Shown: in pieces, positions 38,220 through 59,964 of the stretch
Position numbering within the stretch: the stretch's first letter is position 1
Layout of the letters: every line of letters begins with the position of its first letter
Assembly: GCA_029933125.1 (NCBI GenBank)
Contig: JAOZOU010000002.1
Span: forward strand, 172,281-236,280
DNA length: 64,000 nucleotides
Source of the DNA: a bacterium
GTDB taxonomy: Bacteria > Arandabacterota > Arandabacteria > Arandabacterales > Arandabacteraceae
Direction of reading: 5' to 3'
Position numbers and translations under genes: made by a program
The notes under the pieces: generated by a model
What the model was told of the DNA's origin: nothing
Seen by the model: the letters and a program-made list of their open reading frames with translations, nothing else
Databases searched by the model: none

Positions 38220-38230
38220 CTCTCTGGTCT

Positions 38231-38264
38231 CCTTTAAACTAGTACTGTGAGACTAGTAAGGAGG
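38231..38264 (+). promoter_or_regulatory. PyrR-binding-loop-like hairpin covering the leader-peptide ribosome site
   Basis: Lower stem CCTTT/GGAGG (two G.U pairs), symmetric AA/AA internal loop, upper stem ACTAGT/ACTAGT (38238-38243 and 38252-38257) and terminal loop A-CTGTGA-G. The hexaloop fits CNGNGA of the PyrR consensus ARUCCNGNGAGGYU. In RNA the site reads AGUACUGUGAGACU, ten of the twelve specified positions. The 3' strand of the lower stem is the Shine-Dalgarno of the leader peptide, so folding would block its translation. PyrR binding is inference from this match and from pyrR being the next gene. Confidence 0.7.
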
Positions 38265-38268
38265 AAAT

Positions 38269-39827
<1,559 letters not shown>

Positions 39828-39853
<26 letters not shown>

Positions 39854-41120: not shown

Positions 41121-41759
41121 ATGAACGAGGTGGAACGCTTCCATCTTCTGAAATTGAAGAAAGTCAAAAAGGCTCTTGAGCGCAATGGTATGAGAGCCTA
41201 TGTCGCAAAAGACAGGCATCATGCCTTAAGAAAAGCACTTAGTCTCATTCGCAAAGGCGCCGAAGTTGGACTTGGAGGTTCAAGAACAGTCGCTGAAATC
41301 GGTCTCCTCGATGCCTTACGCAAGGGCAATTACAAACTCTATGATCAGTACCAGCCTTCCCTTTCTAAAGCAAAGGCTATGGAGATGAGGATGAAGGGGG
41401 CAAGGGCTCGCTACTTTGTCTCGGGGACGAATGCCATTACTGAGGATGGAAAGCTCGTCAATATCGATGGCATCGGTAATCGTCTGGCTGGCTTCTGTTT
41501 CGGCCCTGAGAAGGTTATAATTGTGATTGGGAGGAACAAGATCGTTCCAGACATTGATGCTGCAATCTATCGCGCCAAAAATGTGGCTGCACCCATCAAC
41601 GCAATTAGGTTTGGGCTAAATACTCCTTGTGTCATGACAGCCAGATGCAGCGATTGCGAATCCCCTCAGCGCATCTGCAGCTTTACCCTCATCATAGACA
41701 GGCAGAAGGTGAAAGATCGTATCAATGTGATCCTCGTGAATGAGGATCTGGGATTCTAG
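41121..41759 (+). CDS. LUD-domain (LutC/YkgG-like) protein
   Basis: A 212-residue member of the DUF162/LUD family, whose best known members LutB and LutC serve lactate oxidation. 'KALSLIRKGAEVGLGGSRTV' and 'ARYFVSGTNAITEDGKLVNI' are typical, and a C-terminal 'CSDCESPQRICS' adds three cysteines. The stand-alone class is common but has no firm function. It lies directly after pyrC with its own ribosome site (GGAGGAAT) and is inside the pyr transcript. A redox link to dihydroorotate metabolism is a guess. Confidence 0.82.
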   Translation: MNEVERFHLLKLKKVKKALERNGMRAYVAKDRHHALRKALSLIRKGAEVGLGGSRTVAEIGLLDALRKGNYKLYDQYQPSLSKAKAMEMRMKGARARYFVSGTNAITEDGKLVNIDGIGNRLAGFCFGPEKVIIVIGRNKIVPDIDAAIYRAKNVAAPINAIRFGLNTPCVMTARCSDCESPQRICSFTLIIDRQKVKDRINVILVNEDLGF

Positions 41760-41761
41760 CT

Positions 41762-43393
41762 ATGCGCATACTGTTCATTTCCCTTGCAATTATTGCGAGC
41801 TCAATATCCTGTGCTTACTACAACATATACTGGATGGCTCAACACGAGTATGATGAGGTTCTCACCAAGATGAACAACTATGATTTCTGGGATCCCTACT
41901 CGCAGCCAAAAGTCACCGGCGGAAGTGTCAAACTCCTTGATTCATGTATTAAGCGTTGCGGGAAGATTCTCTTGCTTTACCCGAAAAGTAAGTGGGTTGA
42001 CGACGCACTGCTTCTCATGGGTAATTGCTTCGTTCTCAAACGTGATTTACCCAAAGCTATGAAGAAATATGAGGAGATTCTGACTTTGTTTGCTGATAGT
42101 CCTCTGAGTGATGAAGCGAGGTATATGAAAGCCTACACGCTTGTACTTGAGGATTCTCCTGAGCAAGCCCTTAGTGAGATAGAACACCTCCTCGAGACCA
42201 CGAAGAATAAAAGGATAAGGCAAAAATCCCTCTATCTGCGTGCAAGGATCGATTTTGAAAAGAAGAGATGGGAAAAGGTTATCACAGATTGTGAGAGTTA
42301 TCTGGATCAGTTTTCTGATGGAGAGCGAGCTCAGGAGGTAAGGCTAATTCTTGCGAGAAGCTTTCTCAGAGTTGGCAAGCCGCAACAAGCAATTGATCTC
42401 CTCAAGAAGCTCGGCAGAAGAGATGATTCCTTCGGACTTGCTGCCTCGATGACTATGGGTAGGGCTCTCAGAATGATTGGAGACAATGACCAGGCTCTAA
42501 AGGTGTTTGAACATCTCGAGGCTGAGGCGGGTGAGGACACTGTTAAGGCTCGTGCACTCCTTGAAATTGCTGACATGAAAGTTTCTCAGAAGAACTTTGA
42601 TGGTGCGCTATCAGCTCTTGCTGAAGCTGATAGTCTGCTTCCGCCGAAGGAAGATGTCTTGAGATCAGAGGTGCTCTTTACCACTGGGAAAATCTATGAA
42701 AAGTATTTGGGTGATCTTCGCAAAGCAGCAGAAGCCTATTCCAAAGCAAGTAAGCTCAAGTCGGACCTAGGAGATGCTGCTCGGCTGAGGGCGAAGGCGC
42801 TCCATTCTCTCGAGAAATATCAGAACACATTGAACGATTCCATACCTGATTTGCCCCAGGACAAAGCCAGGACACTTCTCTTGATAGGTGAAATCTACCA
42901 GGAGGATCTTGGATGGGAACGAGAGGCTGTTGCTAGTTTCAAAGCCGTGATTGATAGCTTCCCAGCGACACAATCAGCCGCTAAAGCGATGCTTCATCTG
43001 GCATCCATAATGGAGGCTGATGGGGATACGCTTGCCAATGCTTATTACAGAAAAGTCATAAGGCTCTTCCCCAAAACGGCTTATGCTAATTTCGCTCGCC
43101 ACAAACTGAATCTGCCTCTCGTGGATATTGTAAAGGAGGTGGCTGATACGACTGCCGTGCCTGAGAGCCTCAAGGTTTCAGTTCCACATGAGATTGTAAT
43201 TCCAGGCGAGGAAGCTGATACGAATCAGGCTGGCTCTAAGCCTCAGGTAGGCGATACAATACAGGAGATACAAATGCACTCAGTTGGGGGAGACGAGGCT
43301 GATACGAGTGGCAGTACCGGCACATCAAGGGTAACTCTGCCAGGCTCGGAGGAAAGACCCGAACCAGTCGATAGCCTCAAAGGAAAGAATTGA
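41762..43393 (+). CDS. TPR-repeat lipoprotein
   Basis: A 543-residue protein with a lipoprotein signal ('LFISLAIIASSISC') and many TPR-like helical repeats over about 60-450 ('LLMGNCFVLKRDLPKAMKKY', 'LLIGEIYQEDLGWEREAVAS', 'AKAMLHLASIMEADGD'). It begins like the YfiO/Tol-Pal-type cell-envelope TPR proteins ('AYYNIYWMAQHEYDEVL'). The last ~90 residues are low-complexity and acidic with Asp-Thr pairs ('EADTNQAG', 'DEADTSGSTG'). It has no evident link to pyrimidines but lies in the middle of the pyr operon, overlapping pyrK by four bases. Confidence 0.75.
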   Translation: MRILFISLAIIASSISCAYYNIYWMAQHEYDEVLTKMNNYDFWDPYSQPKVTGGSVKLLDSCIKRCGKILLLYPKSKWVDDALLLMGNCFVLKRDLPKAMKKYEEILTLFADSPLSDEARYMKAYTLVLEDSPEQALSEIEHLLETTKNKRIRQKSLYLRARIDFEKKRWEKVITDCESYLDQFSDGERAQEVRLILARSFLRVGKPQQAIDLLKKLGRRDDSFGLAASMTMGRALRMIGDNDQALKVFEHLEAEAGEDTVKARALLEIADMKVSQKNFDGALSALAEADSLLPPKEDVLRSEVLFTTGKIYEKYLGDLRKAAEAYSKASKLKSDLGDAARLRAKALHSLEKYQNTLNDSIPDLPQDKARTLLLIGEIYQEDLGWEREAVASFKAVIDSFPATQSAAKAMLHLASIMEADGDTLANAYYRKVIRLFPKTAYANFARHKLNLPLVDIVKEVADTTAVPESLKVSVPHEIVIPGEEADTNQAGSKPQVGDTIQEIQMHSVGGDEADTSGSTGTSRVTLPGSEERPEPVDSLKGKN

Positions 43394-44202
43394 GTTCAGG
43401 AAGCAAATCCCTAATGGTCAAAAATCTCATATGCGAAGTCATAGCCAACGAGCGCATTTCAGATGACTTCTATCTCCTGAGGATTGTTGCTCCACCACTT
43501 GCGAGTCACTGCGCGCCAGGTCAATTCATTTTTCTCCGAGGCTTAAAAGATGGTTGGCCCTATCTGCGTCGGGCATTCTCGATCTATAGCTCCGACGGCG
43601 AATCTCATATAGAGGTGGTCTATAAGGTTGTTGGTAGGGCTACCCGGCTTATGACGAAGATGAAGTCCTGTGAGAAGGTAGACGTAATAGGTCCTCTCGG
43701 GACATCATTCTCACCTCCTCGAGGCAAGGTTGTGGCTGTTGCTGGTGGGATTGGACTCCCGCCCCTTGCTTACTACTGTCAGCGCTATGCTGGCATTGCT
43801 GAGAGACTTACCCTCATCATTGGTGCTTCAAGCCGAAGCGAGCTTCTCGTACCTGTTGGACTGCTAGCAGAGGGTGTGGAAGTAATAACTTTTACTGAGG
43901 ATGGTTCGCGAGGGAACAAGGGTACCGCTGTCGAAGGCTTAAGCATGACTATCAAGCGCTACGGGGAGCCCTCAATGATAATCGCCTGCGGACCGCAATT
44001 GATGCTCAGGCGAGTTGCGGAGGTTGCAGAAGCTAGTTCCATAGCCTGCGAAGTGTGCGTCGAGGAGAAGATGGGATGTGGGCTTGGGCTTTGTCTGGGA
44101 TGTGCCATACCTGGAGAAGGCGGTGGCTTCCTCCATGCTTGCAGTGATGGGCCTGTGATCGATGCTAACAGGATTGCCTGGGACAGGTGGTGCAGGGTAT
44201 GA
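43390..44202 (+). CDS. pyrK: Dihydroorotate dehydrogenase electron-transfer subunit
   Basis: A 270-residue PyrK, the FAD and 2Fe-2S subunit that passes electrons from class 1B DHODH to NAD. The FAD motif is 'RRAFSIYS' (60-67) and the NAD site starts at 'VVAVAGGIGLPPL'. The cluster cysteines are in 'CEVCVEEKMGCGLGLCLGC' and 'HACSDGPV' near the C-terminus. The start is TTG 43390 behind AAAGGAAAG. It overlaps pyrD by four bases, as expected for a complex. Confidence 0.95.
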   Translation: MSSGSKSLMVKNLICEVIANERISDDFYLLRIVAPPLASHCAPGQFIFLRGLKDGWPYLRRAFSIYSSDGESHIEVVYKVVGRATRLMTKMKSCEKVDVIGPLGTSFSPPRGKVVAVAGGIGLPPLAYYCQRYAGIAERLTLIIGASSRSELLVPVGLLAEGVEVITFTEDGSRGNKGTAVEGLSMTIKRYGEPSMIIACGPQLMLRRVAEVAEASSIACEVCVEEKMGCGLGLCLGCAIPGEGGGFLHACSDGPVIDANRIAWDRWCRV

Positions 44203-45134
44203 GCATTGCTGTGAAACTGGGAAATCTTGAGCTCCGTACACCGCTTATCGGAGCTTCAGGCTTATTCGGATATGGAGATGGATATCGTGACCTCATAGGC
44301 TTTGATCTCTTCGGAGCAGTTGTTACCAAGACAATCACACTCAAGGAACGTCAGGGCAATCACGGGCCACGCCTTGTTGATGTCGGCTTCGGGCTTATCA
44401 ATTCTATTGGTCTTGAGAACATCGGCATTGATCGATTCCTCGATGAGGTATTGCCGAGCCTCGATCTCAACACCTGTCTTTTTGTGAGCATTGGTGGCTT
44501 TGGTGTTGATGAGTACGCTGAAATTGCAAAGCGACTTGACTGTGTCACGGGGATAGATGCTCTTGAAGTCAACATCTCCTGCCCTAATGTATCCGACGGT
44601 GGCATTGCCTTCGGTTCAAATGCGAGACTGACAGCTGAAGTCATATCAAGCGTCAGGGAAAATACCAAGCTACCAATAATTGCCAAGTTGCCGCCTCTTA
44701 CAGTTGGCATTGAGGTAATTGTAAAAGCCGCGCAAGATGCAGGAGCTCAGGCTCTCACTCTCGCCAACACCTACCCAGCTATGGCAATAGATATCGATAG
44801 CGAACGCCCGAGCCTGGGCGCAATCAGTGGTGGACTCAGTGGTAGAGCCATAAAGCCGCTGACTTTGCTGCTCGTCTGGAAAGCCTATACGGTTGCGAAG
44901 ATTCCCATAATTGCCTCAGGCGGCGTCGAGGATTCAAGGGATTGCATAGAATACTTACTCGCTGGTGCCAGTGCCTGCGAAATTGGAAGCATAATGTTGC
45001 GCGATCTTGATGCCCCTCTGAGAATAGTCCATGGAATAAAGAATTTCATTCGCACTCATGGCTATCGAGACATAGGTGAACTTCTCGGCAAAGCACATCG
45101 TAAGGAGGAAAGAAGTGAAACAAAGGAGATCTGA
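44199..45134 (+). CDS. pyrD: Dihydroorotate dehydrogenase, class 1B catalytic subunit
   Basis: A 311-residue FMN enzyme oxidising dihydroorotate to orotate. 'GNLELRTPLIGASGLFGYG' opens the barrel; 'VNISCPNVSDGGIAFG', 'IIAKLPPLT' and 'GGLSGRAIKPLTLLLVW' are the family motifs, with 'IIASGGVEDSRD' near the end. The adjacent pyrK marks class 1B (NAD-linked). ATG 44199 overlaps the pyrK stop. The 3' end overlaps pyrF by 20 bases. Confidence 0.95.
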   Translation: MSIAVKLGNLELRTPLIGASGLFGYGDGYRDLIGFDLFGAVVTKTITLKERQGNHGPRLVDVGFGLINSIGLENIGIDRFLDEVLPSLDLNTCLFVSIGGFGVDEYAEIAKRLDCVTGIDALEVNISCPNVSDGGIAFGSNARLTAEVISSVRENTKLPIIAKLPPLTVGIEVIVKAAQDAGAQALTLANTYPAMAIDIDSERPSLGAISGGLSGRAIKPLTLLLVWKAYTVAKIPIIASGGVEDSRDCIEYLLAGASACEIGSIMLRDLDAPLRIVHGIKNFIRTHGYRDIGELLGKAHRKEERSETKEI

Positions 45135-45819
45135 GATAATCCTCGCTCTTGATACAGACGATATCGAGGAGGCAAGAAATCTTGCCAAGCTTGCACAAGA
45201 GCTGGTTAAGATCTTTAAAATTGGTCCGATTCTTTTCATCTCACATGGGCTTAAGGCGATGGATGTCGTTAAAGATGGCGGGGGTGAGATCTTCCTCGAT
45301 CTCAAGCTCCATGACATACCCAATACTGTGAAGGGTGGCGTAAAAGCGGCATGTTCACTTGGTGTCAGAATGATTACGCTTCATCTTGCTGGAGGTATTG
45401 AAATGATCAAAGGAGCAGTTGATGGTGCCATCGAAGGAAGCCAGAAATATGGTGGCATCAAACCCCTGCTCATCGGTGTGACGCGGCTTACGAGTTTGAG
45501 CAAAGAGCGTGGTCTTCATGATGATGTGTTGCGCCTTTCCGAAGTGGCCGCGAAGAGCGGCATTGATGGCATTGTCTGCTCAGCACAGGAGGTTGCCTCT
45601 GTAAAGCAAGCTTATGGCGATAATCTTATCACTGTTGTTCCGGGTATAAGACTTACAAAAGAAAACAAAGATGATCAGGCAAGGGTTGCAACTCCAGAGG
45701 ATGCTGCAAGGGCTGGTGCTGACTATATAGTTGTCGGCAGAACTGTTACCAGATCAAGTGATCCAGCACGAGCACTCCAGCATGTCGTCGAGGGGATAGA
45801 GAATGCTCAAAGAAGCTGA
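45115..45819 (+). CDS. pyrF: Orotidine 5'-phosphate decarboxylase
   Basis: A 234-residue OMP decarboxylase. 'LALDTDDIEEA' opens the barrel, 'DLKLHDIPNTVKGGV' carries the Asp-Lys-Asp catalytic set, and 'VVPGIRL' and 'YIVVGRTVTRSSDP' the phosphate-binding end. GTG 45115 follows AAGGAGG by six bases, so the longer frame from 45076 is not used. It lies between pyrD and pyrE with overlaps on both sides. Confidence 0.95.
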   Translation: MKQRRSEIILALDTDDIEEARNLAKLAQELVKIFKIGPILFISHGLKAMDVVKDGGGEIFLDLKLHDIPNTVKGGVKAACSLGVRMITLHLAGGIEMIKGAVDGAIEGSQKYGGIKPLLIGVTRLTSLSKERGLHDDVLRLSEVAAKSGIDGIVCSAQEVASVKQAYGDNLITVVPGIRLTKENKDDQARVATPEDAARAGADYIVVGRTVTRSSDPARALQHVVEGIENAQRS

Positions 45820-46417
45820 GGGGGTAAGTGGAGTCATTGATTTGATGATATCAACTGGTGCTCTTCTCAATGGCCATTTCGAGCTTGCGTCTGGTCTGCA
45901 CAGTGCAATCTACATTCAGTGTGCCAAGCTTCTTGAGCACCCCGTTGACGCATCTACAATCGGAACCAAGCTCGCAGGTCTTCTTAAAGATTCAGTTGCC
46001 CCACGCAAGCCGCAAGTTGTTCTAAGTCCAGCTCTTGGAGGTGTGATAATTGGACATGAGGTTGCGAGATCTTTGGGTTGTCGCCACATTTTTGCTGAAA
46101 GGATTGGCGGCAAGATGATCCTGAGGAGAGGATTCGAGATAAAACCCGGGGAGGGTGTGATAATTGTTGAGGATGTGATTACCACTGGAAGTTCGGCCGA
46201 TGAGGTCTTACAGATTGCTCGAACTGCAGGGGCAAGCACATTTGCTCTCGGCATGATCGTCAACCGGAGTCATGGCTTGAGATATGATATGCCGATTGTA
46301 TATCTTGTTAAAGGCGATATTCCAACCTATGAGCCAGATCGCTGTCCTTTGTGCGAACAAGGTTTGCCCCTTGAGAAACCAGGGACCAAGCGAAGTCAGA
46401 TTGGGGGAGTTGACTGA
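45803..46417 (+). CDS. pyrE: Orotate phosphoribosyltransferase
   Basis: A 204-residue PRTase making OMP from orotate. 'GHFELASGLHSAIYIQCAKL', 'VVLSPALGGVIIGHEVAR', and the PRPP loop 'VIIVEDVITTGSSADEVL' are plain. A C-terminal tail has 'DRCPLCEQGLP', a cysteine pair that some PyrE proteins carry. It overlaps pyrF by 17 bases and the next gene by one (TGATG). carA and carB are not in the operon, so carbamoyl phosphate is made elsewhere. Confidence 0.95.
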   Translation: MLKEAEGVSGVIDLMISTGALLNGHFELASGLHSAIYIQCAKLLEHPVDASTIGTKLAGLLKDSVAPRKPQVVLSPALGGVIIGHEVARSLGCRHIFAERIGGKMILRRGFEIKPGEGVIIVEDVITTGSSADEVLQIARTAGASTFALGMIVNRSHGLRYDMPIVYLVKGDIPTYEPDRCPLCEQGLPLEKPGTKRSQIGGVD

Positions 46418-46938
46418 TGGCTAGGGCAATGAGACGACATGATCTGATGCCTTTTGTCAAGCTAGCGGTTGAATGGGGCGCAAAGTCTGCGAAGGTCATC
46501 AAAGCTTCAAGCGTGCGGTGCGAACCCTGGGTGAGATTTAAATGCCAATTTGGCTGCAGTGGCTATAACAAGAGGCTTACCTGCCCCCCATTTACGCCCA
46601 CCCCCGAGCAAACAGCTAAGGCTGTCGCATGCTACGAGCGGGCTATTCTCATTCACGCTAATGATTATGACATCGTCAATGAGATTGTTCCTAATCTCGA
46701 AAGGCAAATCTTTCTTGCGGGTTATTACAAAGCTTTGGGATTTGGCTCAGGTCCTTGCTATCTTTGTCAGAGGTGCAACATAAGGGGAAGATGCAAACAC
46801 CCCTATGATGCTCGCCCGGCGATGGAAGCCTGTGGCATTGATGTCTTCCACACTGCGCGTGTCAACGGCTTTCCCATAAGGGTCGTAACATCACCAGAGC
46901 AACAGGGTGACTATTTTGGACTCATCTTAGTCGATTGA
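46417..46938 (+). CDS. DUF2284 cysteine-rich metal-binding protein
   Basis: A 173-residue protein of the DUF2284 family, presumed to bind metal or an iron-sulfur cluster. Cysteines occur in 'VRCEPWVRFKCQFGCSGY', 'LTCPPFTP' and 'CYLCQRCNIRGRCKHP'. 'RPAMEACGIDVFHTARVNGF' is the conserved tail. The function is not known. It follows pyrE in the same transcript, with start and stop codons fused. Confidence 0.82.
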   Translation: MARAMRRHDLMPFVKLAVEWGAKSAKVIKASSVRCEPWVRFKCQFGCSGYNKRLTCPPFTPTPEQTAKAVACYERAILIHANDYDIVNEIVPNLERQIFLAGYYKALGFGSGPCYLCQRCNIRGRCKHPYDARPAMEACGIDVFHTARVNGFPIRVVTSPEQQGDYFGLILVD

Positions 46939-46947
46939 GAGGAAAAA

Positions 46948-47760
46948 TTGTTTCCCGGTGCTTCACTCAGATTAGGTAGAATTAAGGGCATCGAAATAGA
47001 TGTCAACGCCACGTGGCTCATTGTTTTTGCTCTTTTGGTCTATTCATTGCGCACTGAATATTTCGCCAGATATGTTGAGGATATTGGATCAACAACCACA
47101 TGGATTATCAGCATTGTAGGAGCTGTTATTCTCTTCGCCTCAGTACTTGTCCACGAACTCTCTCATTCCCTTGTTGGACTAAGTCAGGGGTTGCCGATAA
47201 GAAGAATAACTCTTTTCATATTCGGTGGAGTCGCTCAGATGGGAGCTGAGCCCGCCACGCCTGGTGCAGAGCTCAAGATGGCAATTGCAGGACCTGTTGC
47301 CAGTTTCGCAATTGCTGGGGTCGCTGGTCTTTTGCGCTTCGGGCTACTCTCCAGGCACGCTACTGGCGGACCGGTGCTTCTGGCCAGATATGTGATGATT
47401 GCCAACATTGTCCTCGGTTGCTTCAACATGCTTCCAGGTTTTCCACTGGACGGCGGAAGGGTTTTGCGTGCAATTCTCTGGAAGTCATCGGGGAATTATT
47501 TCAAAGCTACGCGCCTGGCTGCCAGAATGGGTCGTATCATTGGGCTTTCCTTTGTCTTCCTGGGAATGACCGCAGCCGTGGCTTTTTCTTCGCCGGGATT
47601 CCTGTGGCTTGCTTTCATAGGCACATTCCTTGAAAGGCTTGCGTTTATTAGCGAGGTCAGCCTTAGGCGCCTTTACGAAACCTATCTCCAAAGGCAATGG
47701 ATTGTGGGGGAGGGCTTAATCACCAGCGATCGTCATTTCAGTAATGACGAAGGTGGGTGA
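46948..47760 (+). CDS. Site-2 protease-like M50 zinc metallopeptidase
   Basis: A 270-residue membrane protease. 'LVHELSHSLVGL' holds HExxH in the membrane, and 'NMLPGFPLDGGRVLRAILW' supplies the third zinc ligand (Asp). About six helices are seen and no CBS or PDZ domain. Site-2 proteases cut membrane anchors of anti-sigma factors or other regulators. The TTG at 46948 is preceded by AGAGG. It is probably the last gene of the pyr transcript. Its 3' end overlaps the opposing TldE gene by 45 bases. Confidence 0.87.
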   Translation: MFPGASLRLGRIKGIEIDVNATWLIVFALLVYSLRTEYFARYVEDIGSTTTWIISIVGAVILFASVLVHELSHSLVGLSQGLPIRRITLFIFGGVAQMGAEPATPGAELKMAIAGPVASFAIAGVAGLLRFGLLSRHATGGPVLLARYVMIANIVLGCFNMLPGFPLDGGRVLRAILWKSSGNYFKATRLAARMGRIIGLSFVFLGMTAAVAFSSPGFLWLAFIGTFLERLAFISEVSLRRLYETYLQRQWIVGEGLITSDRHFSNDEGG

Positions 47761-49047
47761 GCCGATTCTACCGAAGAAGCGGAGATCCGATCCTACAGCC
47801 TCTATATCGCTTAGCATCTTGAGCAGATTGCCGGCGATCGTAATTCCATCGACAGGTTTGATGATCCTGCCATTGTTTATCCACAATCCCTCAGCTCCTC
47901 TTGAAAAATCACCTGTTGTTATGTTTACCCCGAAGCCAAGCAGATTTGTAATCAGAATACCATTGCCGATATTGGCTATGATCTCATCACGCGATGCCTT
48001 GCCGGGTATTAGATAGAAATTGTTGGCTCCAACCGAAGGGATGGAGCTGGAACCACGACGTGCATTCCCGGTTGATCTGGCTCCAGCCTTTCTGGCGGAG
48101 CGCACATCGTAGAGATAGCTTTTCACGATGCCTTTATCGATACAGATCGTTCGACGCGTCGGTATACCTTCAGCATCGAATGGACGTGAGCCAACTCTGC
48201 GTGGCAGTTTTCCGTCATCGACAAATGTGGCTAAGTTTGTACCAACCTTCTGACCTCTGCGGTCTTTGAGAAATGACATTCCCTTGAGTATGTTTTCACC
48301 GTTTACGCTCGCAAAAATGTTCTCAACCACTTCTGCACCCGTACGAGGATCGAAGGCCACGCTCGCCTTCTGAGTCTTGATAGGTCTTGCGCCCAGCATT
48401 TGGATTGCACGCTGGGCTGCTGTCGAACCTACAACTGGAGGAGGTTCGAGTTCATCGAGAAAACGTTCTGTCGACAGCCACATCCCCATACGTTTCTCAC
48501 CGTTTTGCTCAGCGACGGGGACACATGTAAGATCGAATCGAGTAGCACTGTAACCAATTGGCTCAGATTTATCGCTCGCGAGCACAATTGTCACCTTGTG
48601 GTCACTATAGGATGCGCCATAAGTGTTCTTTATTCTGGAATCAAAATCATAAGCAGCCTGCTCGCAAGCCAGCGCCATATCAATCTTCTTGGCAAGAGGC
48701 GTATCATCGATCTTTGAATCATAGATCTCGAGAGCCTCAGGCTTGGCATAGCTCTCAATTCCTGATGCTGGATCAGGTGAGCCGTTGATGGCAAATGCAC
48801 GCGCTTGCTCAATGGCATCGTGGATCGCAGCTTCAGAAAAATCGGTGGTGAAGCTGAAGCCAAGCGATCTGTTTATGAAGAAGCGGATGCCGATACCACA
48901 AAAGTTCGATTGTTCGATGCTTTCGATTTCACCTTTTCTGACTTTGATATCAATTTCGGTGCCCATCTCAATGAGGCAGTCGCACTCATCTGCACCTCTA
49001 AGCTTAGCCTTCTTCACTATGCTTGTGGCAAGATCAACCTTGTCCAT
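47716..49047 (-). CDS. pmbA: TldE/PmbA-family protein, second TldD/TldE pair
   Basis: A 443-residue PmbA/TldE protein, partner of the TldD just upstream. 'GIGIRFFINRSLGFSFTTDF', 'VAFDPRTGAEVVENIFASVN' and 'SKASRDEIIANIGNGILITN'-type segments fit the family ('GNGILITNLLGFGVN', 'GDFSRGAEGLWI'). No HExxxH. ATG 49047 stands two bases after the tldD stop; a longer frame to 49140 would overlap tldD and shows no homology. The pair is only distantly similar to the pair at 16.8-19.6 kb. Confidence 0.9.
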   Translation of the reverse strand: MDKVDLATSIVKKAKLRGADECDCLIEMGTEIDIKVRKGEIESIEQSNFCGIGIRFFINRSLGFSFTTDFSEAAIHDAIEQARAFAINGSPDPASGIESYAKPEALEIYDSKIDDTPLAKKIDMALACEQAAYDFDSRIKNTYGASYSDHKVTIVLASDKSEPIGYSATRFDLTCVPVAEQNGEKRMGMWLSTERFLDELEPPPVVGSTAAQRAIQMLGARPIKTQKASVAFDPRTGAEVVENIFASVNGENILKGMSFLKDRRGQKVGTNLATFVDDGKLPRRVGSRPFDAEGIPTRRTICIDKGIVKSYLYDVRSARKAGARSTGNARRGSSSIPSVGANNFYLIPGKASRDEIIANIGNGILITNLLGFGVNITTGDFSRGAEGLWINNGRIIKPVDGITIAGNLLKMLSDIEAVGSDLRFFGRIGSPTFVITEMTIAGD

Positions 49048-49049
49048 TG

Positions 49050-50459
49050 CTATGCCTTTGTTCCTCCGACTGTTATTTCGGATATTCTCACAGTAGGAAT
49101 TCCATTGCCCACCGGTATAAGTTGGCCAGCCTTGCCACATGTACCTCCCCCGGTGTCGAAGGCGAAATCATTGCCAACCATGTCGATCTTCTTGAGAATT
49201 TCCGCCCCATTACCGATGAGATTCGCACCTCTTACAGGAGGTCCAACCTTACCATTTTCTATGAGGTAGCCTTCGATCACTTCAAAGACAAAGTTGCCGC
49301 TGGCGATGTCAACCTGCCCACCACCGATTCTTTTGGCATAGAACCCCTTCTTGACAGATCCGATTATCTCATCCACTGCACTTGATCCCCCAAGCATGAA
49401 GGTATTCGTCATGCGAACTGTAGGCATAAACCTATATGATTGCCGTCTTCCATTGCCTGTTGGTCTAGCGTCAACAAGTCTTGCATTGAGGCGGTCATAG
49501 AGGAAACTTTTGAGAATGCCATTCTCGACAAGGATTGTCCTCTGAGAAAGAGTACCCTCATCATCAATGTTTATTGTTCCCCTTAGACCCGGTATGGATC
49601 CATCATCGATGATTGTGCAAAGCTCGCTAGCGACCTGTTGTCCGATCTTGCCAGCAAAGATGGAGGTTCTCTTTCTTATGAAATCTCCCTCAAAGCCATG
49701 TCCAATTGCTTCGTGTAGAAGCACGCCACCTCGTCCACTGCCAAGGACGAGTGTCATCTTGCCGGCTGGAGCTTCCTGTGCTTCGAGAAGCCTTATGGCT
49801 TGGTGAGCAGCTTCAGTTGCACAGCTCCGAGGATCATGTTCGTCAAAAATCTCGTAGCCAATGCTTCCACTTACAACCTTCATCCCCCTTTGTCTAAGAC
49901 CGTTTTGCTCAGCAATGACAATTATTCTGAGAGATATAACTACCTGGTGGTCAGTGACAAAAGTGCCTTCCGAATTAGCAACCGTAATAATCTTGTCTGA
50001 ATCGATAACTGCCGCAAGTACCTCTCTTATTCGCCGATCGGTGCTTCTGGCAGCATCGTCAGCTGAGCGGGCGATCTCTATTTTCTTAGCCCCTTCAAAG
50101 TCAGGAGGATATATTCGCGGTCTTGACCTGAGTTCAGCAAAGCTAACCTTACCAACCTCAATGGGATGGATGGATTTTCCTTGTTTTGCTATCTGTCCAG
50201 CAACCTTGGCAGCTTCGACTATGGCTTTAGGGTCAATGCCATCAGTGTATGCATAGCCAATCTCTTCACCGTTGAGAGCTCTTATACCAACGCCAAGGAG
50301 AAGTCCGCGAGAAGCTTCCCTGACAACTTGCTCTTCGACGCGAACTGTATCAGTAACGCGCCGCTCAGCATAGACCTCGGCGAAATCTGCACCCTGTGCA
50401 AGAGCGGCATTTAGTGACTGGCGAACAATGCCGGGATCTAAAAGTGACTCTTGTTTCAT
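49050..50459 (-). CDS. tldD: TldD metalloprotease, second TldD/TldE pair
   Basis: A 469-residue classical TldD with 'LLHEAIGHGFEGDFIRK' (HExxxH at 249-254), 'TDTVRVEEQVVREASRGLLL' near the N-terminus, 'TLSQRTILVENGILKSFLYD' and 'PTVRMTNTFMLGG'. TldD/TldE cleaves unfolded peptides and antitoxins in E. coli. ATG 50459 is preferred because a promoter-like TTGACA covers the alternative TTG start at 50510. No strong ribosome site is seen at either. Confidence 0.92.
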   Translation of the reverse strand: MKQESLLDPGIVRQSLNAALAQGADFAEVYAERRVTDTVRVEEQVVREASRGLLLGVGIRALNGEEIGYAYTDGIDPKAIVEAAKVAGQIAKQGKSIHPIEVGKVSFAELRSRPRIYPPDFEGAKKIEIARSADDAARSTDRRIREVLAAVIDSDKIITVANSEGTFVTDHQVVISLRIIVIAEQNGLRQRGMKVVSGSIGYEIFDEHDPRSCATEAAHQAIRLLEAQEAPAGKMTLVLGSGRGGVLLHEAIGHGFEGDFIRKRTSIFAGKIGQQVASELCTIIDDGSIPGLRGTINIDDEGTLSQRTILVENGILKSFLYDRLNARLVDARPTGNGRRQSYRFMPTVRMTNTFMLGGSSAVDEIIGSVKKGFYAKRIGGGQVDIASGNFVFEVIEGYLIENGKVGPPVRGANLIGNGAEILKKIDMVGNDFAFDTGGGTCGKAGQLIPVGNGIPTVRISEITVGGTKA

Positions 50460-50481
50460 TGCAGTGTCCAATAGCTTGTTA

Positions 50482-50510
50482 TGTTTATCATGAAGCACCT
50501 CAGGTGTCAA
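50482..50510 (-). promoter_or_regulatory. Candidate promoter of the second TldD/TldE operon
   Basis: On the minus strand TTGACA (50510-50505), 17 bases, then TAAACA (50487-50482). The -35 is perfect, the -10 poor. It lies 23 bases before the ATG at 50459. Confidence 0.4.
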
Positions 50511-53705: not shown

Positions 53706-55133
53706 ATGCTCTTTAACTCCTTTATTTTCATCATATTTCTTTGCTGCGTTGTACCTATCTATCACTTTCTGAACCGGCGTTACCGTAACCTGTTTCTGCT
53801 CGGTGCAAGCTACCTCTTCTATGGCTACTGGGACTGGCGCTTTCTCTCCCTTATACTCGCTTCGACACTTCTCGACTTCCATGTGGGCAGGGCGATTTAT
53901 CATAATGAGGATGAAGGTAGACGCAGGTTCTTACTTTTCCTGAGTGTTGCAGGCAATCTCACCATACTAGGTTTCTTCAAATACTACAATTTCTTCGCTG
54001 ACTCTTTTGCAGCCCTTGCATCTGTTTTTGGCCTCAAGCTTGACTATGCTCATCTCAACATAATCCTTCCTGTTGGAATATCGTTTTACACTTTTCAGAC
54101 CTTGTCTTATACGATTGACATTTATCGTAGAAAACTTGAACCGACTGACTCCTTCAGAGATTTTGCTCTCTTTGTGGCCTTTTTCCCCCAACTTGTTGCC
54201 GGTCCGATTGAGCGAGCGAAGCATCTCTTACCCCAAATTGAGAAGAGTCCATCTGCAACCGCTGAGGATTTCAGGGAAGGGCTGGCGCTTATCACTATTG
54301 GACTTTTCAAGAAGGTAATGATCGGTGATACCTGTGGCAGGATTGTTGATCAGATCTTCGCTGATCCCAAGCTTTATAGTTCGCCTGAGCTGATGATGGG
54401 GCTCATGCTTTTTGCTATTCAGGTTTATGCTGACTTCTCGGGGTACAGCAGCATTGCACGTGGAACTGCGCGCTTCCTGGGTATTCACATTATGGTCAAC
54501 TTCAATCAGCCTTATCTCTCTGCGAATATTACAGAGCTCTGGAAACGCTGGCACATATCGCTTTCCAGCTGGCTCAGGGACTATGTTTACATCTCGCTGG
54601 GGGGTAACCGAAAGGGAACAGGACGAACATATTTCAACCTTTTGCTGACAATGACACTTTGCGGTCTTTGGCATGGCGCAAAGTGGACATTCGTTTTCTG
54701 GGGTTTTCTGCAGGGATCATTTCTTGCTATCCACAAGCTGATACTTCGAGGCAAGAAAGCGACCCTTGGCTTTACCTATGCAGGTGGAAGGAGCTTTTTT
54801 GTCTTCTTATGCAAGGTTGTCTGGACCCATGCCCTGTTCCTCTTTGGGTTGCTCTTCTTTAGAGCCCAGAGTTTTTCAAATGCCTCGTATATTCTTAAGG
54901 AGTTTGTTTTCTGGAAATCCTATGGCTTCGATCGTCAGATTTTCACTATCGTCTTCACCTACTACTTTGTCACAATCCTTATCGATGTTATCGAGTATTG
55001 GACAAAGGATCATGCCTTCCTGCTACGGTTGCAGCCGGCTTACAGAACAGGATTGTACTTCGCAACACTTGGCATAACCTTTGTCTATCTTTTCCAGGCA
55101 CGATCGTATCCGTTTGTGTATTTCCAGTTCTGA
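53706..55133 (+). CDS. MBOAT-family O-acyltransferase (AlgI/DltB-like)
   Basis: A 475-residue membrane protein with about ten helices. 'SYLFYGYWDWRFLSLILAST' and 'ILPVGISFYTFQTLSYTIDI' are typical of AlgI. 'QVYADFSGYSSIARG', 'NITELWKRWHISLSSWLRDY' and the catalytic His in 'LCGLWHGAKWTF' are all present. It passes acetyl groups across the inner membrane for O-acetylation of an exported polysaccharide. The next gene, an SGNH protein, would be the periplasmic transferase. No alginate biosynthesis genes are here, so the target glycan is unknown. Confidence 0.92.
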   Translation: MLFNSFIFIIFLCCVVPIYHFLNRRYRNLFLLGASYLFYGYWDWRFLSLILASTLLDFHVGRAIYHNEDEGRRRFLLFLSVAGNLTILGFFKYYNFFADSFAALASVFGLKLDYAHLNIILPVGISFYTFQTLSYTIDIYRRKLEPTDSFRDFALFVAFFPQLVAGPIERAKHLLPQIEKSPSATAEDFREGLALITIGLFKKVMIGDTCGRIVDQIFADPKLYSSPELMMGLMLFAIQVYADFSGYSSIARGTARFLGIHIMVNFNQPYLSANITELWKRWHISLSSWLRDYVYISLGGNRKGTGRTYFNLLLTMTLCGLWHGAKWTFVFWGFLQGSFLAIHKLILRGKKATLGFTYAGGRSFFVFLCKVVWTHALFLFGLLFFRAQSFSNASYILKEFVFWKSYGFDRQIFTIVFTYYFVTILIDVIEYWTKDHAFLLRLQPAYRTGLYFATLGITFVYLFQARSYPFVYFQF

Positions 55134-55146
55134 GGTGGAGGGAATT

Positions 55147-56238
55147 GTGAGAGAGCACGTTAGGTTCTTCCTCAAAATGACTTTGACATTCACAATTGCT
55201 ATGGTGTTACTTGAACTCTTCTTGCGATTCTCTGCCACAACAACGCCATCCGTTTTGGTTGATGATGATATGTTTGGCAAGATGATGAAGCCTTCCACTG
55301 ACGTAACGTTTGTCAATGAGGGTCTGCGAATTGGCAGGATCAATCGTTATGGCTATCTTGGACCTGCTTATGCTCCACGCAAGGAAGAAGGAACGGTAAG
55401 AATAGCACTTATGGGGGATTCCTATGTTGCAGGTCACCACCTTTTCGATAGGCATCACTTTAGGTATCTCCTTGAGCAGGGGCTCAATCAACTCTGTGAT
55501 AGTCACGTCGAGGTGCTCAATTTTGGCTTTCCTGCCCTCAACTTTGAACAGATGTACCTATACTATGAAGTTTTTGCCAGAAAGTTCGCACCTGATTTTG
55601 TCATCTATGTTATCGGGACAAGCAGTCTCAATCAGCCGAGTGATGAGGTTGGCCCTCGTTTAGTTGTTACAGATGATTCTGTCCATATCAGCTATGCTTT
55701 CAGATCGAGTAAGCGATTCGCTATTTCAAAGCGTTTGAGTCCCTTGAAACGTCTGGCCCTTTACTCACTGCTGCGCAAGGGGAAACAAATCTATGATCGT
55801 GGCGATGCTCCCAAGGTAATCTTTGACAAATTCTTTATCCTCGCTCGGGGTTCTGGCAGGAGCGCAGAAAAGCACTCTGTGCCGGTAGAGAGACCCGAGC
55901 GGAAGGCGATCAATAGGGCAATAGTTAGGCAACTCGGCATGAGCAATCGGGAGGGTGGACCAGTCTCAATAATAGTGACTCGTGGTGAGCTGCCGAGGGG
56001 TTTTGTCGAATTTGCGAAAAACAATGGCGTTGCCGTCTGGGATCCTTCCGCAAGGCTCGACAGCCTAGCAAGAAGTGGAATCGATCCCAACTGGTGGGCA
56101 GGTAGCCAGCGCAAGGGGCACTGGAACCAATATGCTCACCGCGTAATAGGCGATTTCTTGGTCCATAAGATGCTTCCCTTCATCAAATCTCTCGCCAAGG
56201 GTCAAAAGACATTGCGTGACCCTGACAGGGCTCCGTAG
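55147..56238 (+). CDS. SGNH/AlgX-like membrane-anchored O-acetyltransferase or esterase
   Basis: A 363-residue protein with one N-terminal helix ('FFLKMTLTFTIAMVLLELFL') and an SGNH-type domain outside. Block I is 'IALMGDSYVAGH' (Ser), and the end has 'RKGHWNQYAHRVIGDFL' with the His of the triad. In AlgJ/AlgX-like systems such a protein moves the acetyl group from MBOAT to the polymer. GTG 55147 sits five bases after GGAGG; the frame from 55081 would overlap the MBOAT gene and hide the signal helix. Confidence 0.82.
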   Translation: MREHVRFFLKMTLTFTIAMVLLELFLRFSATTTPSVLVDDDMFGKMMKPSTDVTFVNEGLRIGRINRYGYLGPAYAPRKEEGTVRIALMGDSYVAGHHLFDRHHFRYLLEQGLNQLCDSHVEVLNFGFPALNFEQMYLYYEVFARKFAPDFVIYVIGTSSLNQPSDEVGPRLVVTDDSVHISYAFRSSKRFAISKRLSPLKRLALYSLLRKGKQIYDRGDAPKVIFDKFFILARGSGRSAEKHSVPVERPERKAINRAIVRQLGMSNREGGPVSIIVTRGELPRGFVEFAKNNGVAVWDPSARLDSLARSGIDPNWWAGSQRKGHWNQYAHRVIGDFLVHKMLPFIKSLAKGQKTLRDPDRAP

Positions 56239-56334: not shown

Positions 56335-59300
56335 ATGAAATATAGTCTTGTGGTTCTTCTCTTGTTTGTAATGGCTGCACCTGCACATGCATCAGGCTAT
56401 AGCATCACTTTGACCGATCCAACCGGTGATGACTATGGTCCGGGGACCTATATCTATCCTCTTGATCCGGTGTTCGCCCCGGGATGCTTCGATATAACAA
56501 GGCTTACGGTTCGGGAGGTTGGTAGGAATCTACATTTCGAAGTTGAGATTGCTGGAGAAATAACTGACCCCTGGGGCTCAGGCGCGGGCTTCTCGCTTCA
56601 AAGCATCGATATCTACATCGATAAAGATGGCATATCTGGATCAGGCTCAACGGCGAGTCTTGAGCGGAGAAATTTGACCTTCTCAGCATCAAGTGCATGG
56701 GAATACGTTATCTGGTGCGCACCACCGTTTGATGGTTTTCAAACCCATGTTATCGACTCGCAAGGCAATACCTACCACGATGGTATCACTGTAAGTGCTG
56801 ATGAGAGCAGTGACGTTATAACTATCAATGTACCTGAGGCAATAATTGGCACCCCAACCTCATCCTGGCATTACATCTGCCTTATGCTTAGTCAGAACGG
56901 ATACGAGCTCGGAAGAGTGAGGCCTGTCCTGAAGAATGTAGGGCAATGGGTCTTAGGGGGAGGTGATGATAGCCAGTATGATTCAAATGTGATTGATATG
57001 GTTGCTGAAGCGGGAGTCAATCAGGAGGCTTTGCTTGCCAATTACGATCCTGAGACACGAGTTCAGCCGATTCTCATAAACAGAGTTGATGCTTCTTCTC
57101 CCGATATAGACCACTCACCTCCATCTGGCTGGGAAGCACACCAGCCTCTGATTGTAACCGCAGAGATAAGTGATGATGTTGTAACGTCGGTAACGCTTTT
57201 CTATCGGATGCCAAACGAGACCTATGATTCAACCGATTTTGTACGCACGAGTGCTACGCACTGGGAAGCAAAAGTGGCAGGGTCGGAAGTTGTTGAACCG
57301 GCTCTCGAGTATTACATCTTTGCGACAGATGCAACCAATCCGGCAACCTTGCCCGACTCATCCAATCCTTTTTCTATACCCGTTGCTCCTGATACAACCC
57401 CACCACTCATTGAGGGTTTTGAAGTCGATCCAGCTATTTTCTCCCCTAATGGTGACAATTATAAGGATTTCACCTCGGTGACTTTGAAGGTCAGTGAACC
57501 CAGCCATTTAAGTGTTACTGTAAGGGATTCGAGCGGGGCTTTCGTAAGGAGTCTTGCTGAGAGCACCTTTGCAGAAAGCACTCTTACAGTTACGTGGGAT
57601 GGCAGGGATTCCTCATCGCAGGTTGTGGGAAACGGAACCTACTGGATTGTCGCACGGGCTGAGGATCTTGCCTTCCACCCTGGACAAGCCGAATCGAGCA
57701 CAGTTGAGATCGATTTGAACCAACCTGCAAGGCAAATTGATGTAATTCTCCTTTTCCATGCCAATCAGAATCTAGTCCCTTATGGGAGAGCCGCAAATCT
57801 TGCTTGCTACAAGGGGGTGCTCACAACCCTGAGAGCACATCCTTCACTCAGGTTTGTCATCCATTTCTCAGGATCGCTTCTGAGTGATCTTCTCTGGTTT
57901 GATCCTGAAACCATTGATATCCTTCGGCAGGGGATTGCAGATGGGCAATTTGAGATTGTCGGTAGCACATACATTCAGAATATCATCTACTCAACGCGAC
58001 TTAGCCCGGACGACTTTCAATTCAATCAACATCAGATAGCTCTCCACAAGAGTCTGATTGAGCATGTGCTTGGCAGGTCTCCGGTGAGCTTCTGGAATCC
58101 AGAAAGGGTATGGACACAAAATATCGTGAAGCTCCTTACCGACAATGGTTACACAACCGTTCAGGTCGAGGATCACATACTCTGGGATAGCGGGATATCG
58201 GGTAGCGAATATGCTGTGAGGACGACAACTTACAACGGAAAATCTGTATATGTCTTCACAGATGACAAGATCTTTGAAGGCATGATAAATGGGGCTATCG
58301 ACAGTGGTGACACATCAAGCGTCCTCGGCTTCCTCCATCATCTATATCTTGAGGATGTAGATGATCTCTATGCAGTTTGCTACCACGAGGACATGGAGGC
58401 AACTGGGCTTTGGGATTATGAAAATGGTGAAGATCCTGCAATCGATCTTGCCAATCTTGACAAGCTCCTGACAGCCTTTGAAAACAATCCGTGGATAAGG
58501 GTGACAACCTATTCAGAGTTTCTCCAGAACCACCACATCTATGAAGAGGTGACACCCATCGTCGATGGTGCAGCTGACTGGATGGGGCGCGATGCCTGGT
58601 TCGATGAGAACAGTGAGCCTGAGGCCCAAGCATACAGACAGTTCTTCGATACCATCCGAGACACAATTAATGCAATTCATGCAACCTTCCCATCCTATGC
58701 TCCTGACACCCTGTCTGCTCGGCACCTGATTGACTATGCCTGGTTTACGCTTTGTGCTCATCAGTACGAATTCGCCGTGCATGGTTATCAGGGGATAGTG
58801 GGTACAACTCAGTGGGATCTTGCTCGCTGCGCTCTCGTTAGTGCCAGGGCCGCACGGGAAGCACTTCAAGGAGTGCCCCACTCCTTCGTGGGTGACATAA
58901 ACTCCGATGGCATTGATGAGATAGTGATTGTGACCGATGGGGACATGTTCGTCTTCTCGCCCTACGGTGGAAGATTGCTCTACTGGTTTGACCTGGAAGA
59001 AGGGACACAAGATGTTGGCAATGAGAATTTCATGACGAGCTACGGCGAAACCTATACGGATGATGCCAGATATGTTGAGCCAACCATTGGTTGCCAGGCT
59101 TATTCCTGGCTGTGTGGTAACATGATATTTCCCGAGATTCACACGTGGAGGTTCGAGGCGAGGCGAAGATGTCTGAACGATTCAATCTGGATCGATGGTT
59201 CACCTCAGGGTGACCTTGCTGATACAGAGCTTACCTACAGTCTCGATTCCACAAGTGTTGAGTTCTATTATTCGCTTGGACCAATAGATGTAACCAAGCA

Positions 59301-59964
59301 CATAAGCACCTCGCTTCACAACATCGCAGTAGAATATGTTTTCGAATCAAGTGCTTCCAGCCTAACGACTATTGAGATAGGTGTTGAAAATGGGCTCTCA
59401 CCCGATTGCCTGAATGTCCTCTTCAATGGCAGGCAATCTCTTAAGTACTGGGATGGAACTGATACCTCAAGTGTTTTCTATCCCTCGATGCGGGGCGCTG
59501 TCAACGTTGTAAGTGGGAAGGGGCTACTTTTTGAGTTTATGACTCAGCCCGATAAGATAACGGCGGAGGATAATGTCTTCGGTCTTGAGATAAGCCCTTA
59601 CTGGACACTCGATGTACCTCCCTTCGGCAACAGCTCTCTAACCGTCGCCCTAAGCATAGGGTCCTTCTCTGGCCTGAAGCCACCACCGAGAGAGCATGGA
59701 AACCTCATCATCAAACCCAACCCCTTCAACAGGTATGTCATGATCCTCTATAATGGGCAAAAGCATACACCAACCCATCTTCGTATTTACGACACAATGG
59801 GAAGGCTTGTTCGTGTCCTTGATGGTAAGAAAGCCTCAGCTGGGTACTTATTTACATGGAATGGACATGACTCCTTTGGCAGACAGGTGGCTAATGGGGT
59901 TTACTTTGTGAGGATTGTTCCATCAAGGACGCCAGTTGAAGCCAAAGTCATTCTGGCGCGCTAG
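56335..59964 (+). CDS. Very large secreted GH57-type glycoside hydrolase with accessory domains
   Basis: A 1,209-residue exported protein. Signal peptide 'MKYSLVVLLLFVMAAPAHAS'. About 20-235: a domain like the C-terminal part of glucodextranase ('PVFAPGCFDITRLTVREVG', 'IDIYIDKDGISGSGS'). About 362-465: a FlgD-like Ig domain ('FSPNGDNYKDFTSVTLKV'). About 470-800: a GH57 barrel with 'HANQNLVPY', 'HFSGSLL', 'FWNPERVW' (Glu near 589, likely nucleophile) and 'VQVEDHI' (Asp near 613, likely acid). A Ca-binding-like 'GDINSDGIDEIVIV' leads the amylase-type beta domain. The end (about 1122-1209, 'IKPNPFNRYVMILY', 'WNGHDSFGRQVANGVYFVRI') is a FlgD-like sorting tail. Alpha-glucan is the likely substrate; this is from the family. 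Confidence 0.85.
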   Translation: MKYSLVVLLLFVMAAPAHASGYSITLTDPTGDDYGPGTYIYPLDPVFAPGCFDITRLTVREVGRNLHFEVEIAGEITDPWGSGAGFSLQSIDIYIDKDGISGSGSTASLERRNLTFSASSAWEYVIWCAPPFDGFQTHVIDSQGNTYHDGITVSADESSDVITINVPEAIIGTPTSSWHYICLMLSQNGYELGRVRPVLKNVGQWVLGGGDDSQYDSNVIDMVAEAGVNQEALLANYDPETRVQPILINRVDASSPDIDHSPPSGWEAHQPLIVTAEISDDVVTSVTLFYRMPNETYDSTDFVRTSATHWEAKVAGSEVVEPALEYYIFATDATNPATLPDSSNPFSIPVAPDTTPPLIEGFEVDPAIFSPNGDNYKDFTSVTLKVSEPSHLSVTVRDSSGAFVRSLAESTFAESTLTVTWDGRDSSSQVVGNGTYWIVARAEDLAFHPGQAESSTVEIDLNQPARQIDVILLFHANQNLVPYGRAANLACYKGVLTTLRAHPSLRFVIHFSGSLLSDLLWFDPETIDILRQGIADGQFEIVGSTYIQNIIYSTRLSPDDFQFNQHQIALHKSLIEHVLGRSPVSFWNPERVWTQNIVKLLTDNGYTTVQVEDHILWDSGISGSEYAVRTTTYNGKSVYVFTDDKIFEGMINGAIDSGDTSSVLGFLHHLYLEDVDDLYAVCYHEDMEATGLWDYENGEDPAIDLANLDKLLTAFENNPWIRVTTYSEFLQNHHIYEEVTPIVDGAADWMGRDAWFDENSEPEAQAYRQFFDTIRDTINAIHATFPSYAPDTLSARHLIDYAWFTLCAHQYEFAVHGYQGIVGTTQWDLARCALVSARAAREALQGVPHSFVGDINSDGIDEIVIVTDGDMFVFSPYGGRLLYWFDLEEGTQDVGNENFMTSYGETYTDDARYVEPTIGCQAYSWLCGNMIFPEIHTWRFEARRRCLNDSIWIDGSPQGDLADTELTYSLDSTSVEFYYSLGPIDVTKHISTSLHNIAVEYVFESSASSLTTIEIGVENGLSPDCLNVLFNGRQSLKYWDGTDTSSVFYPSMRGAVNVVSGKGLLFEFMTQPDKITAEDNVFGLEISPYWTLDVPPFGNSSLTVALSIGSFSGLKPPPREHGNLIIKPNPFNRYVMILYNGQKHTPTHLRIYDTMGRLVRVLDGKKASAGYLFTWNGHDSFGRQVANGVYFVRIVPSRTPVEAKVILAR

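Follow-up and report, generated by a model that had tools for sequence, protein, structure and literature searches.

A GH57 glycoside hydrolase with a type IX-like sorting tail, predicted to act at the cell surface of a bacterium of the phylum Arandabacterota

We analysed a window of 64,000 nucleotides (contig JAOZOU010000002.1 of assembly GCA_029933125.1, positions 172,281 to 236,280) from a bacterium of the phylum Arandabacterota, with the emphasis on an open reading frame (ORF) at 56335-59964 of the forward strand that encodes a 1209-residue protein built around a glycoside hydrolase of family 57 (GH57). Judged from its sequence and from structure prediction, the protein is probably an extracellular, retaining enzyme of the cell surface, most likely acting on alpha-1,4-linked glucan outside the cell. 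Taken part by part, it is very probably catalytically active, nearly as probably exported to the surface, and likely, if with somewhat less assurance, to use an alpha-glucan as its substrate; a hydrolase is appreciably more likely than a glucanotransferase, and neither dextran nor pullulan has more support as a substrate than starch or glycogen.

The frame is a single open one and lies where a preliminary description of this DNA had placed it. A longer version opens at GTG 56266 and shares the stop at 59964; we prefer ATG 56335 as the start because the signal-peptide-like stretch begins there. From this ATG the N-terminus reads MKYSLVVLLLFVMAAPAHA-SG, which by eye resembles the signal peptide that had been proposed. 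Comparison with three relatives revealed purifying selection on the frame, strongest in the barrel and helical bundle and weakest in the tail (against the G002 ortholog, the proportions of non-synonymous and synonymous differences, pN and pS, are 0.17 and 0.77 for the whole protein, with a pN of 0.09 in the barrel; synonymous sites are saturated in nearly all of these comparisons), and it is thus not a chance frame. In the ortholog of G001 (L027:7996-11664, reverse strand) the N-terminus leads into VIAC, a possible lipoprotein cleavage site, the Cys of which is missing at this position from the other orthologs.

The domains follow one another in the order signal-like N-terminus, Glucodextran_C, Ig-like domain, FlgD-type domain, GH57 barrel, helical bundle, mutarotase-like beta domain and C-terminal FlgD/Por tail, so that the arrangement given in the preliminary description is borne out by Pfam and NCBIfam matches together with a structure model of the core. 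Pfam GH57 matches at residues 499-734 (E 3e-22, 79.7 bits over a cut-off of 21.2), and FlgD_ig matches in two stretches, the better of which is that at 381-443 (1.6e-14); the unnamed Ig-like domain sits between this first FlgD domain and Glucodextran_C. The C-terminal stretch exceeds the cut-off of the NCBIfam model for type A tails of the type IX secretion system (T9SS), TIGR04183 (31.9 bits against 23). Confidence in the models is given as the predicted local distance difference test (pLDDT) and the predicted template modelling score (pTM), and TLGT is the 4-alpha-glucanotransferase of Thermococcus litoralis (1k1w and 1k1x). The features along the gene are as follows.

56335-56391 (+): signal-peptide-like N-terminus, residues 1-19, letters read by eye
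56407-57060 (+): Glucodextran_C (PF09985), residues 25-242; Pfam E 1.1e-58, and 6.3e-21 to the glucodextranase 1ug9
57079-57393 (+): Ig-like domain without a Pfam name, residues ~249-353; kept in orthologs; in the whole-protein model its strands have block pLDDT 75-84
57394-57720 (+): internal FlgD-type Ig domain, residues ~354-462 (Pfam 381-443); FlgD_ig, genome match C76:229755-229943
57730-58539 (+): GH57 barrel, residues 466-735; Pfam match, 1k1w at 9.4e-14, core model, VIA-align Z 31.8 to 1k1x
58102-58104 (+): codon of Glu590, predicted catalytic nucleophile (WNPERVW), on TLGT E123; invariant in 8/8 family rows and 24/24 deeper rows
58390-58392 (+): codon of Asp686, predicted acid/base (HEDMEATGLW), on TLGT D214; invariant in 8/8 and 24/24 rows
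58594-58869 (+): helical bundle with a divergent motif (LCAHQYEF), residues ~754-845; helices in the model, motif table
58873-59673 (+): mutarotase-like beta domain, residues ~847-1113, counterpart of the C-terminal domain of TLGT; VIA-align alignment and a sub-threshold PF09095 match in a relative
59716-59961 (+): C-terminal FlgD/Por sorting-type tail, residues 1128-1209; TIGR04183, FlgD_ig match C76:232056-232196

The evidence for an active enzyme lies in the core. A profile of the core aligned to TLGT (E 1.9e-21) and brought Glu590 and Asp686 onto E123 and D214, which we take to be the catalytic residues of that enzyme. The loss of the catalytic Glu or Asp in a structure-based alignment, named in advance as what would refute the proposal, is not seen in the sequence alignments, and the assignment agrees with the catalytic rule given for the family in the parts of a survey of 1602 GH57 sequences used here (PMC6037648, from 2018). 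The core was predicted from an alignment of 24 rows, 16 of them drawn from 20 TLGT-like sequences described below, and the model (mean pLDDT 80.2, pTM 0.82) forms a (beta/alpha)7 barrel followed by a helical bundle, as expected of GH57. Most blocks of 10 residues in the barrel lie at pLDDT 79-97, five at 60-65, and the block holding E590 stands at 80. The best PDB match found by Foldseek was TLGT (E 1.5e-33), three chains of which head the list; the first 19 rows returned by VIA-align are GH57 structures at Z 20-32, among which we count 1ufa and 4cmr on the presumption that they belong to the family. Against 1k1x, residues 1-644 of the model gave Z 31.8 with 533 residues aligned at a root-mean-square deviation (rmsd) of 9.4, a high value suggesting that the orientation of the domains differs or is poorly set in the prediction; against the Staphylothermus amylopullulanase (7e1y), Z was likewise 31.8, with an rmsd of 3.4 over 355 residues. 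GH38 mannosidases appear in the Foldseek list from rank 4 and again in that of VIA-align, where they and polysaccharide deacetylases come after the GH57 structures; this likeness was set aside as shared fold only. Residues ~380-648 of the model resemble galactose mutarotases (VIA-align, Z 16-18), and in the corresponding region of a relative (L066) PF09095, the C-terminal family of alpha-amylases and 4-alpha-glucanotransferases, matches under its cut-off (E 5e-4, 20.2 bits against 22); what had first been noted simply as a beta domain is therefore the ordinary third domain of a TLGT-type GH57 enzyme.

At E 1e-15 or better the profile of this core matched 58 of 386 genomes (up to three candidates were scored per genome, settings under which distant members could have escaped). 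A match over the core, or over its first 294 positions at a contig end, was obtained in eight genomes, namely six of the eight of the host's own phylum and G280 and G065, the two found among 378 genomes outside it; the remaining 50 match in the barrel half only. The two members of the phylum with no core match, G004 and G005, have completeness values of 87 and 73, and absence there is not certain. Within the phyla of G280 (four genomes) and G065 (one genome), these same two genomes were the ones to match again, and viral contigs, scanned with the alignment of the core, gave 54 pattern matches and no relative. Glucodextran_C precedes the core in the members from G000, the host, to G003 (Pfam) and in that of G006 (alignment). 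The G007 member (L030) carries a CBM48-type domain in its place (AMPK1_CBM, 4.8e-7); since a domain of glucan-binding type is thus exchanged for Glucodextran_C, a binding role of the latter is favoured. The G280 member (L066) has, by eye, an extra N-terminal domain in front of Glucodextran_C, and a Por tail. That of G065 (L067:8206-11091, reverse strand) starts with a CBM48-like domain recognized by eye, without a Pfam call, and has a type I dockerin (6.9e-13) at its C-terminal end, in a genome that also encodes SprA; a further dockerin-like repeat gene, again judged by eye, lies nearby at L067:4462-5394.

The proposal of a type IX-like export route likewise gained support from the genomes of the phylum. 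SprA scored over its cut-off in all eight of them and in none of 14 control genomes, the PorV/PorQ family was over cut-off in all eight, and PorU in six. The host itself encodes a PorU (568 bits against a cut-off of 420; C120:121782-125075) adjoining a PorV-family gene (C120:125177-126103), and has 18 PorV/PorQ-family stretches in total, some of them two stretches of one protein. It also holds 90 FlgD_ig matches. Their places were read for 40, that is, the best 41 less the internal domain of the GH57 protein itself (row C76:229755, not C-terminal), and in 39 of these 40 (39 of the best 41) no more than 30 residues separate the end of the match from the stop codon; 26 of the 39 proteins with such a C-terminal domain finish in Arg or Lys, as does the GH57 protein with AKVILAR. 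The sequences thus point to a route of this kind, which we term type IX-like because its channel and attachment parts are encoded and a motor was not found with the GldM and GldN models (GldK and GldL were not searched for). Going by its type IX parts, the host may belong to the FCB superphylum. A PorV-like barrel had also been noted in the window, as follows.

19862-21076 (-): PorV/PorQ-family outer-membrane protein paralogue, possible partner of the route; NF033709 98 bits against a cut-off of 90, PorV equivalog 61.8 against 250

The barrel is real by the family model, but it is a family paralogue, one of the 18 matched stretches of the host, ~35 kb from the GH57 gene and distinct from the copy adjoining PorU, and is no evidence of a dedicated partner.

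To place the core within GH57 we turned to the five conserved sequence regions (CSRs) that serve as fingerprints in the survey (PMC6037648), locating them in the present family from the text of that survey, without its logos. They were compared with 20 TLGT-like rows (L044-L065 without L044 and L056, which are truncated or in another frame). Described GH57 enzymes are matched by CSR-2, by CSR-3 and by the greater part of CSR-4. CSR-1 reads NQNLV in six of the eight members, as against HQPVG in 15 of the 20 TLGT-like rows, and CSR-5 reads AHQ[YF]EF in all seven members that hold the region, as against N[DC]x[YFL]WH in all 20. Position 23 of CSR-4 is Ala in seven members and Thr in one, and Lys in every TLGT-like row. 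According to the survey text, Lys is almost invariant here in 4-alpha-glucanotransferases, Ala occurs in maltogenic amylases and Thr in alpha-amylases, and so this position alone is not new. For CSR-5 the text lists ends in Tyr-Tyr, Phe-Phe, Phe-Trp, Trp-Trp, Phe plus a non-aromatic residue, Gly-Trp, and Thr plus Lys or His, with no entry for 4-alpha-glucanotransferases, and the Glu-Phe end of the present family is absent from these. None of three described fingerprints is therefore found: the Lys of 4-alpha-glucanotransferases is missing from all eight members; the Trp-Trp with which CSR-5 closes in amylopullulanases (a feature that the survey text itself does not treat as unambiguous) is replaced by Glu-Phe in seven of seven; and the Ala of maltogenic amylases is present in seven of eight without the accompanying Phe-Trp. 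In a tree with 19 TLGT-like rows (L044, L056 and L045 left out), the eight members fall on one side of a branch with support 100/100 and a long stem. By sequence they are a separate GH57 group, with a specificity that is not readable from the motifs.

Six GH57 proteins are over cut-off in the host genome, and their comparison bears on an expectation of the preliminary description, that GH57 enzymes are mostly cytosolic. In four of the six (the window protein, L022, L023 and L024) a signal-like stretch was seen by eye near the N-terminus, which in L022-L024 starts at a later start codon than the first of the frame; if these readings hold, the expectation does not apply to this genome. The other two, a branching-enzyme type with a BE_C domain (L025) and a protein of 729 residues (L026), have no signal-like start. 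L022 combines CBM48, GH57 and a C-terminal Glucodextran_C, and L023 and L024 both have FlgD tails. The L023 protein (L023:5214-9455, reverse strand; 1413 residues, with an NQxL-type CSR-1 by eye and its FlgD tail at the C-terminus) shares 22% identity with the window protein over 624 columns; in the tree its branch reaches 5.6 changes per column, too long for its position to be interpreted.

In the mechanism that we propose, the protein would be exported by Sec through its N-terminal signal, its C-terminal FlgD/Por tail would lead it through a type IX channel of the SprA type, and a module of the PorV/PorU type would attach or process it, the genes for these components being present. Glucodextran_C and the Ig and FlgD domains may bind the substrate and keep the barrel at a distance from the surface. 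Glu590 would then attack the anomeric carbon with Asp686 donating a proton, like other GH57 enzymes, as conservation and fold suggest, and the surface enzyme would cut or rearrange alpha-1,4-linked glucan outside the cell.

A number of observations weigh against this reading. (i) On the side of the substrate, CSR-1 and CSR-5 diverge from the features in the survey text, and the Ala at position 23 of CSR-4 is the residue given for maltogenic amylases; another substrate or mode is therefore possible. PF09985 has also been described on an archaeal endo-beta-1,4-galactanase (PMC8447715, seen in part), so that Glucodextran_C by itself is no pointer to alpha-glucan. (ii) What relatives retain next to the GH57 gene is a gene for a CitMHS transporter together with nucleotide-sugar genes. 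G001 keeps the order PAS gene, GH57, CitMHS transporter, UDP-sugar dehydrogenase, cupin, as does G002 within the limits of its short contig, and in G003 a FlgD-tailed papain-type protease takes the place of the transporter. The ORFs scanned, those of the window outside 32206-47760, included no gene recognized as serving alpha-glucan uptake. (iii) With regard to export, Por_Secre_tail (PF18962) matches residues 1128-1205 at 2.8e-5 and 24.8 bits, below its cut-off of 27; the internal FlgD domain of the same protein means that the FlgD fold alone is no sorting signal; and the GldM and GldN models matched in none of the eight genomes of the phylum, an absence that says little because they were silent in the controls as well. 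(iv) As to the models, the block holding D686 reaches a pLDDT of 63 only, and the model of the whole mature protein, from an 8-row alignment, is weak (pLDDT 62.4, pTM 0.40, the N-terminal module mostly <50) and was used for region-wise confidence, being too weak for the arrangement of the domains.

The divergent motifs would be accounted for if the same exported and active enzyme did not act on ordinary alpha-1,4-glucan but on something else, such as an alpha-galactoside, a polysaccharide from the environment or a surface glycan of the cell itself. NQNLV and the Glu-Phe end match nothing in the survey text (PMC6037648), the long, fully supported stem parts the eight members from the TLGT-like rows, PF09985 also occurs on a beta-galactanase (PMC8447715, in the parts used), and nucleotide-sugar genes lie nearby, with a GH53 galactanase gene elsewhere in the window. 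However, the nearest solved full-length relative acts on alpha-glucan, two members carry a CBM48-type domain (L030 by Pfam, L067 by eye), and the GH57 activities named in the survey text are mostly on alpha-glucans; we regard such a substrate as rather unlikely. Only slightly less credit is due to a disproportionating, extracellular 4-alpha-glucanotransferase in place of a hydrolase, a sub-case of the surface alpha-glucan enzyme that we graded separately. The three-domain core equals TLGT along its length, and the next matches of the core profile elsewhere are TLGT-type frames, mostly of ~700-750 residues; yet the Lys at position 23 of CSR-4 that marks such enzymes (in the survey text as in our TLGT-like rows) is missing throughout the family, and the products of a transferase would diffuse off outside the cell.

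Doubts of another kind concern activity and location. GH57-like proteins without catalytic residues are known (PMC6037648, in the text used here), and the window protein could be a non-catalytic, glucan-binding surface protein on a GH57 scaffold; the invariance of Glu and Asp in eight members, two of them from other phyla, and the position of barrel and bundle as the most conserved parts make this very improbable. That the tail is a mere Ig-like domain and the protein periplasmic would fit the silence of the GldM and GldN models (shared by the controls) and the internal FlgD domain, which shows a fold also used inside proteins. It fits poorly with the C-terminal place of 39 of the 40 FlgD domains read, with the final Arg or Lys in 26 of these 39, with the presence of SprA, the PorV family and PorU, and with the dockerin of L067, likewise an extracellular attachment device, and we consider it improbable. 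An exported, surface-located enzyme for alpha-1,4-linked glucan thus stays the reading that we prefer.

Among known systems TLGT is the closest: it is the best structural match, its catalytic residues align, and it has the same succession of barrel, helical bundle and C-terminal beta domain. Unlike TLGT, to which it is ~20% identical, the window protein has no Lys at position 23 of CSR-4, reads AHQYEF where TLGT-like rows read N[DC]x[YFL]WH, and adds N-terminal modules and a sorting-type tail. It shares barrel and bundle with GH57 amylopullulanases (Staphylothermus 7e1y, Aquifex 9jlu and others, and L022 by architecture), but these end CSR-5 in Trp-Trp, with exceptions, according to the survey text (PMC6037648), rather than in Glu-Phe. 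L022 of the same genome likewise joins GH57 to a Glucodextran_C, 36% identical to that of the window protein, although in reversed module order, with Glucodextran_C at the C-terminus, and with no FlgD tail found. The secretion of GH57 enzymes is itself not exceptional and has been published: AmyA of Sulfolobus solfataricus is a secreted alpha-amylase whose C-terminus holds it at the cell envelope and aids growth on starch (PMC5023256), although it is archaeal and its anchor is a hydrophobic/charged motif, not a FlgD tail; secreted archaeal GH57 enzymes are also reported in PMC11046441; and a GH57 protein with signal peptide and dockerin is described for Ca. Stygibacter of the Cloacimonadota (PMC8542988), which, going by its description, resembles the present family as an exported enzyme with a C-terminal attachment module (compare L067), but for which no T9SS tail is mentioned (all three sources in the parts seen). 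Type A cargo of the T9SS in Bacteroidota has in common with the window protein a signal-like N-terminus (here by eye), a C-terminal Ig-type tail and encoded SprA, PorV and PorU; it differs in that GldM and GldN were not detected here (controls silent) and in that the host phylum (eight genomes) lies outside Bacteroidota as grouped. The literature that we found on GH57 and type IX secretion describes, in the parts seen, no GH57 protein with a T9SS tail. The novelty lies in a separate, unassigned GH57 group whose surface architecture is uncommon, and not in any new type of system.

More tentatively, the family might be a new GH57 subfamily with a specificity of its own: an extracellular branch, so far seen in one small phylum and two isolated genomes elsewhere, with interchangeable glycan-binding modules (Glucodextran_C or CBM48) before the core and attachment modules (T9SS tail or dockerin) after it, and with CSR-1 and CSR-5 altered for a substrate or linkage new to GH57. 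If the enzyme works in the way that we propose, GH57 gains a surface-exposed, type IX-tailed branch in which one catalytic core has moved between T9SS-tailed and dockerin-bearing formats, and the uptake of external storage polysaccharide by the little-known bacteria of this phylum becomes easier to explain. The divergent active-site motifs would then offer a defined set for testing GH57 specificity.

Between the PAS and GH57 genes, at 53706-56238 (+), lie an MBOAT acyltransferase gene and an SGNH-like gene (by eye, without a Pfam match), a pair that was seen at the host locus and at none of the others compared. We considered whether this pair might tie the enzyme to polysaccharide O-acetylation and rejected the idea: in G002, the nearest relative, nothing stands between the PAS gene and the GH57 gene; in G001 and G003 no window-matching gene on that side is closer than the PAS gene; and neither upstream protein had a match listed at the seven other family loci compared, some with little flank. 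The second polysaccharide enzyme of the window is the GH53 endo-beta-1,4-galactanase already mentioned (26893-27981, +; E 8.7e-81). Two separate TldD/PmbA-type metallopeptidase gene pairs lie at 16841-19616 (-) and 47716-50510 (-), the first adjoining the PorV-family ORF. Finally, the 880-residue protein encoded at 5373-8015 (+) has the appearance of a fusion; its best matches to malic enzyme fall in the C-terminal half, and residues 207-328 give weaker ones of the glutamate/alanine dehydrogenase kind.

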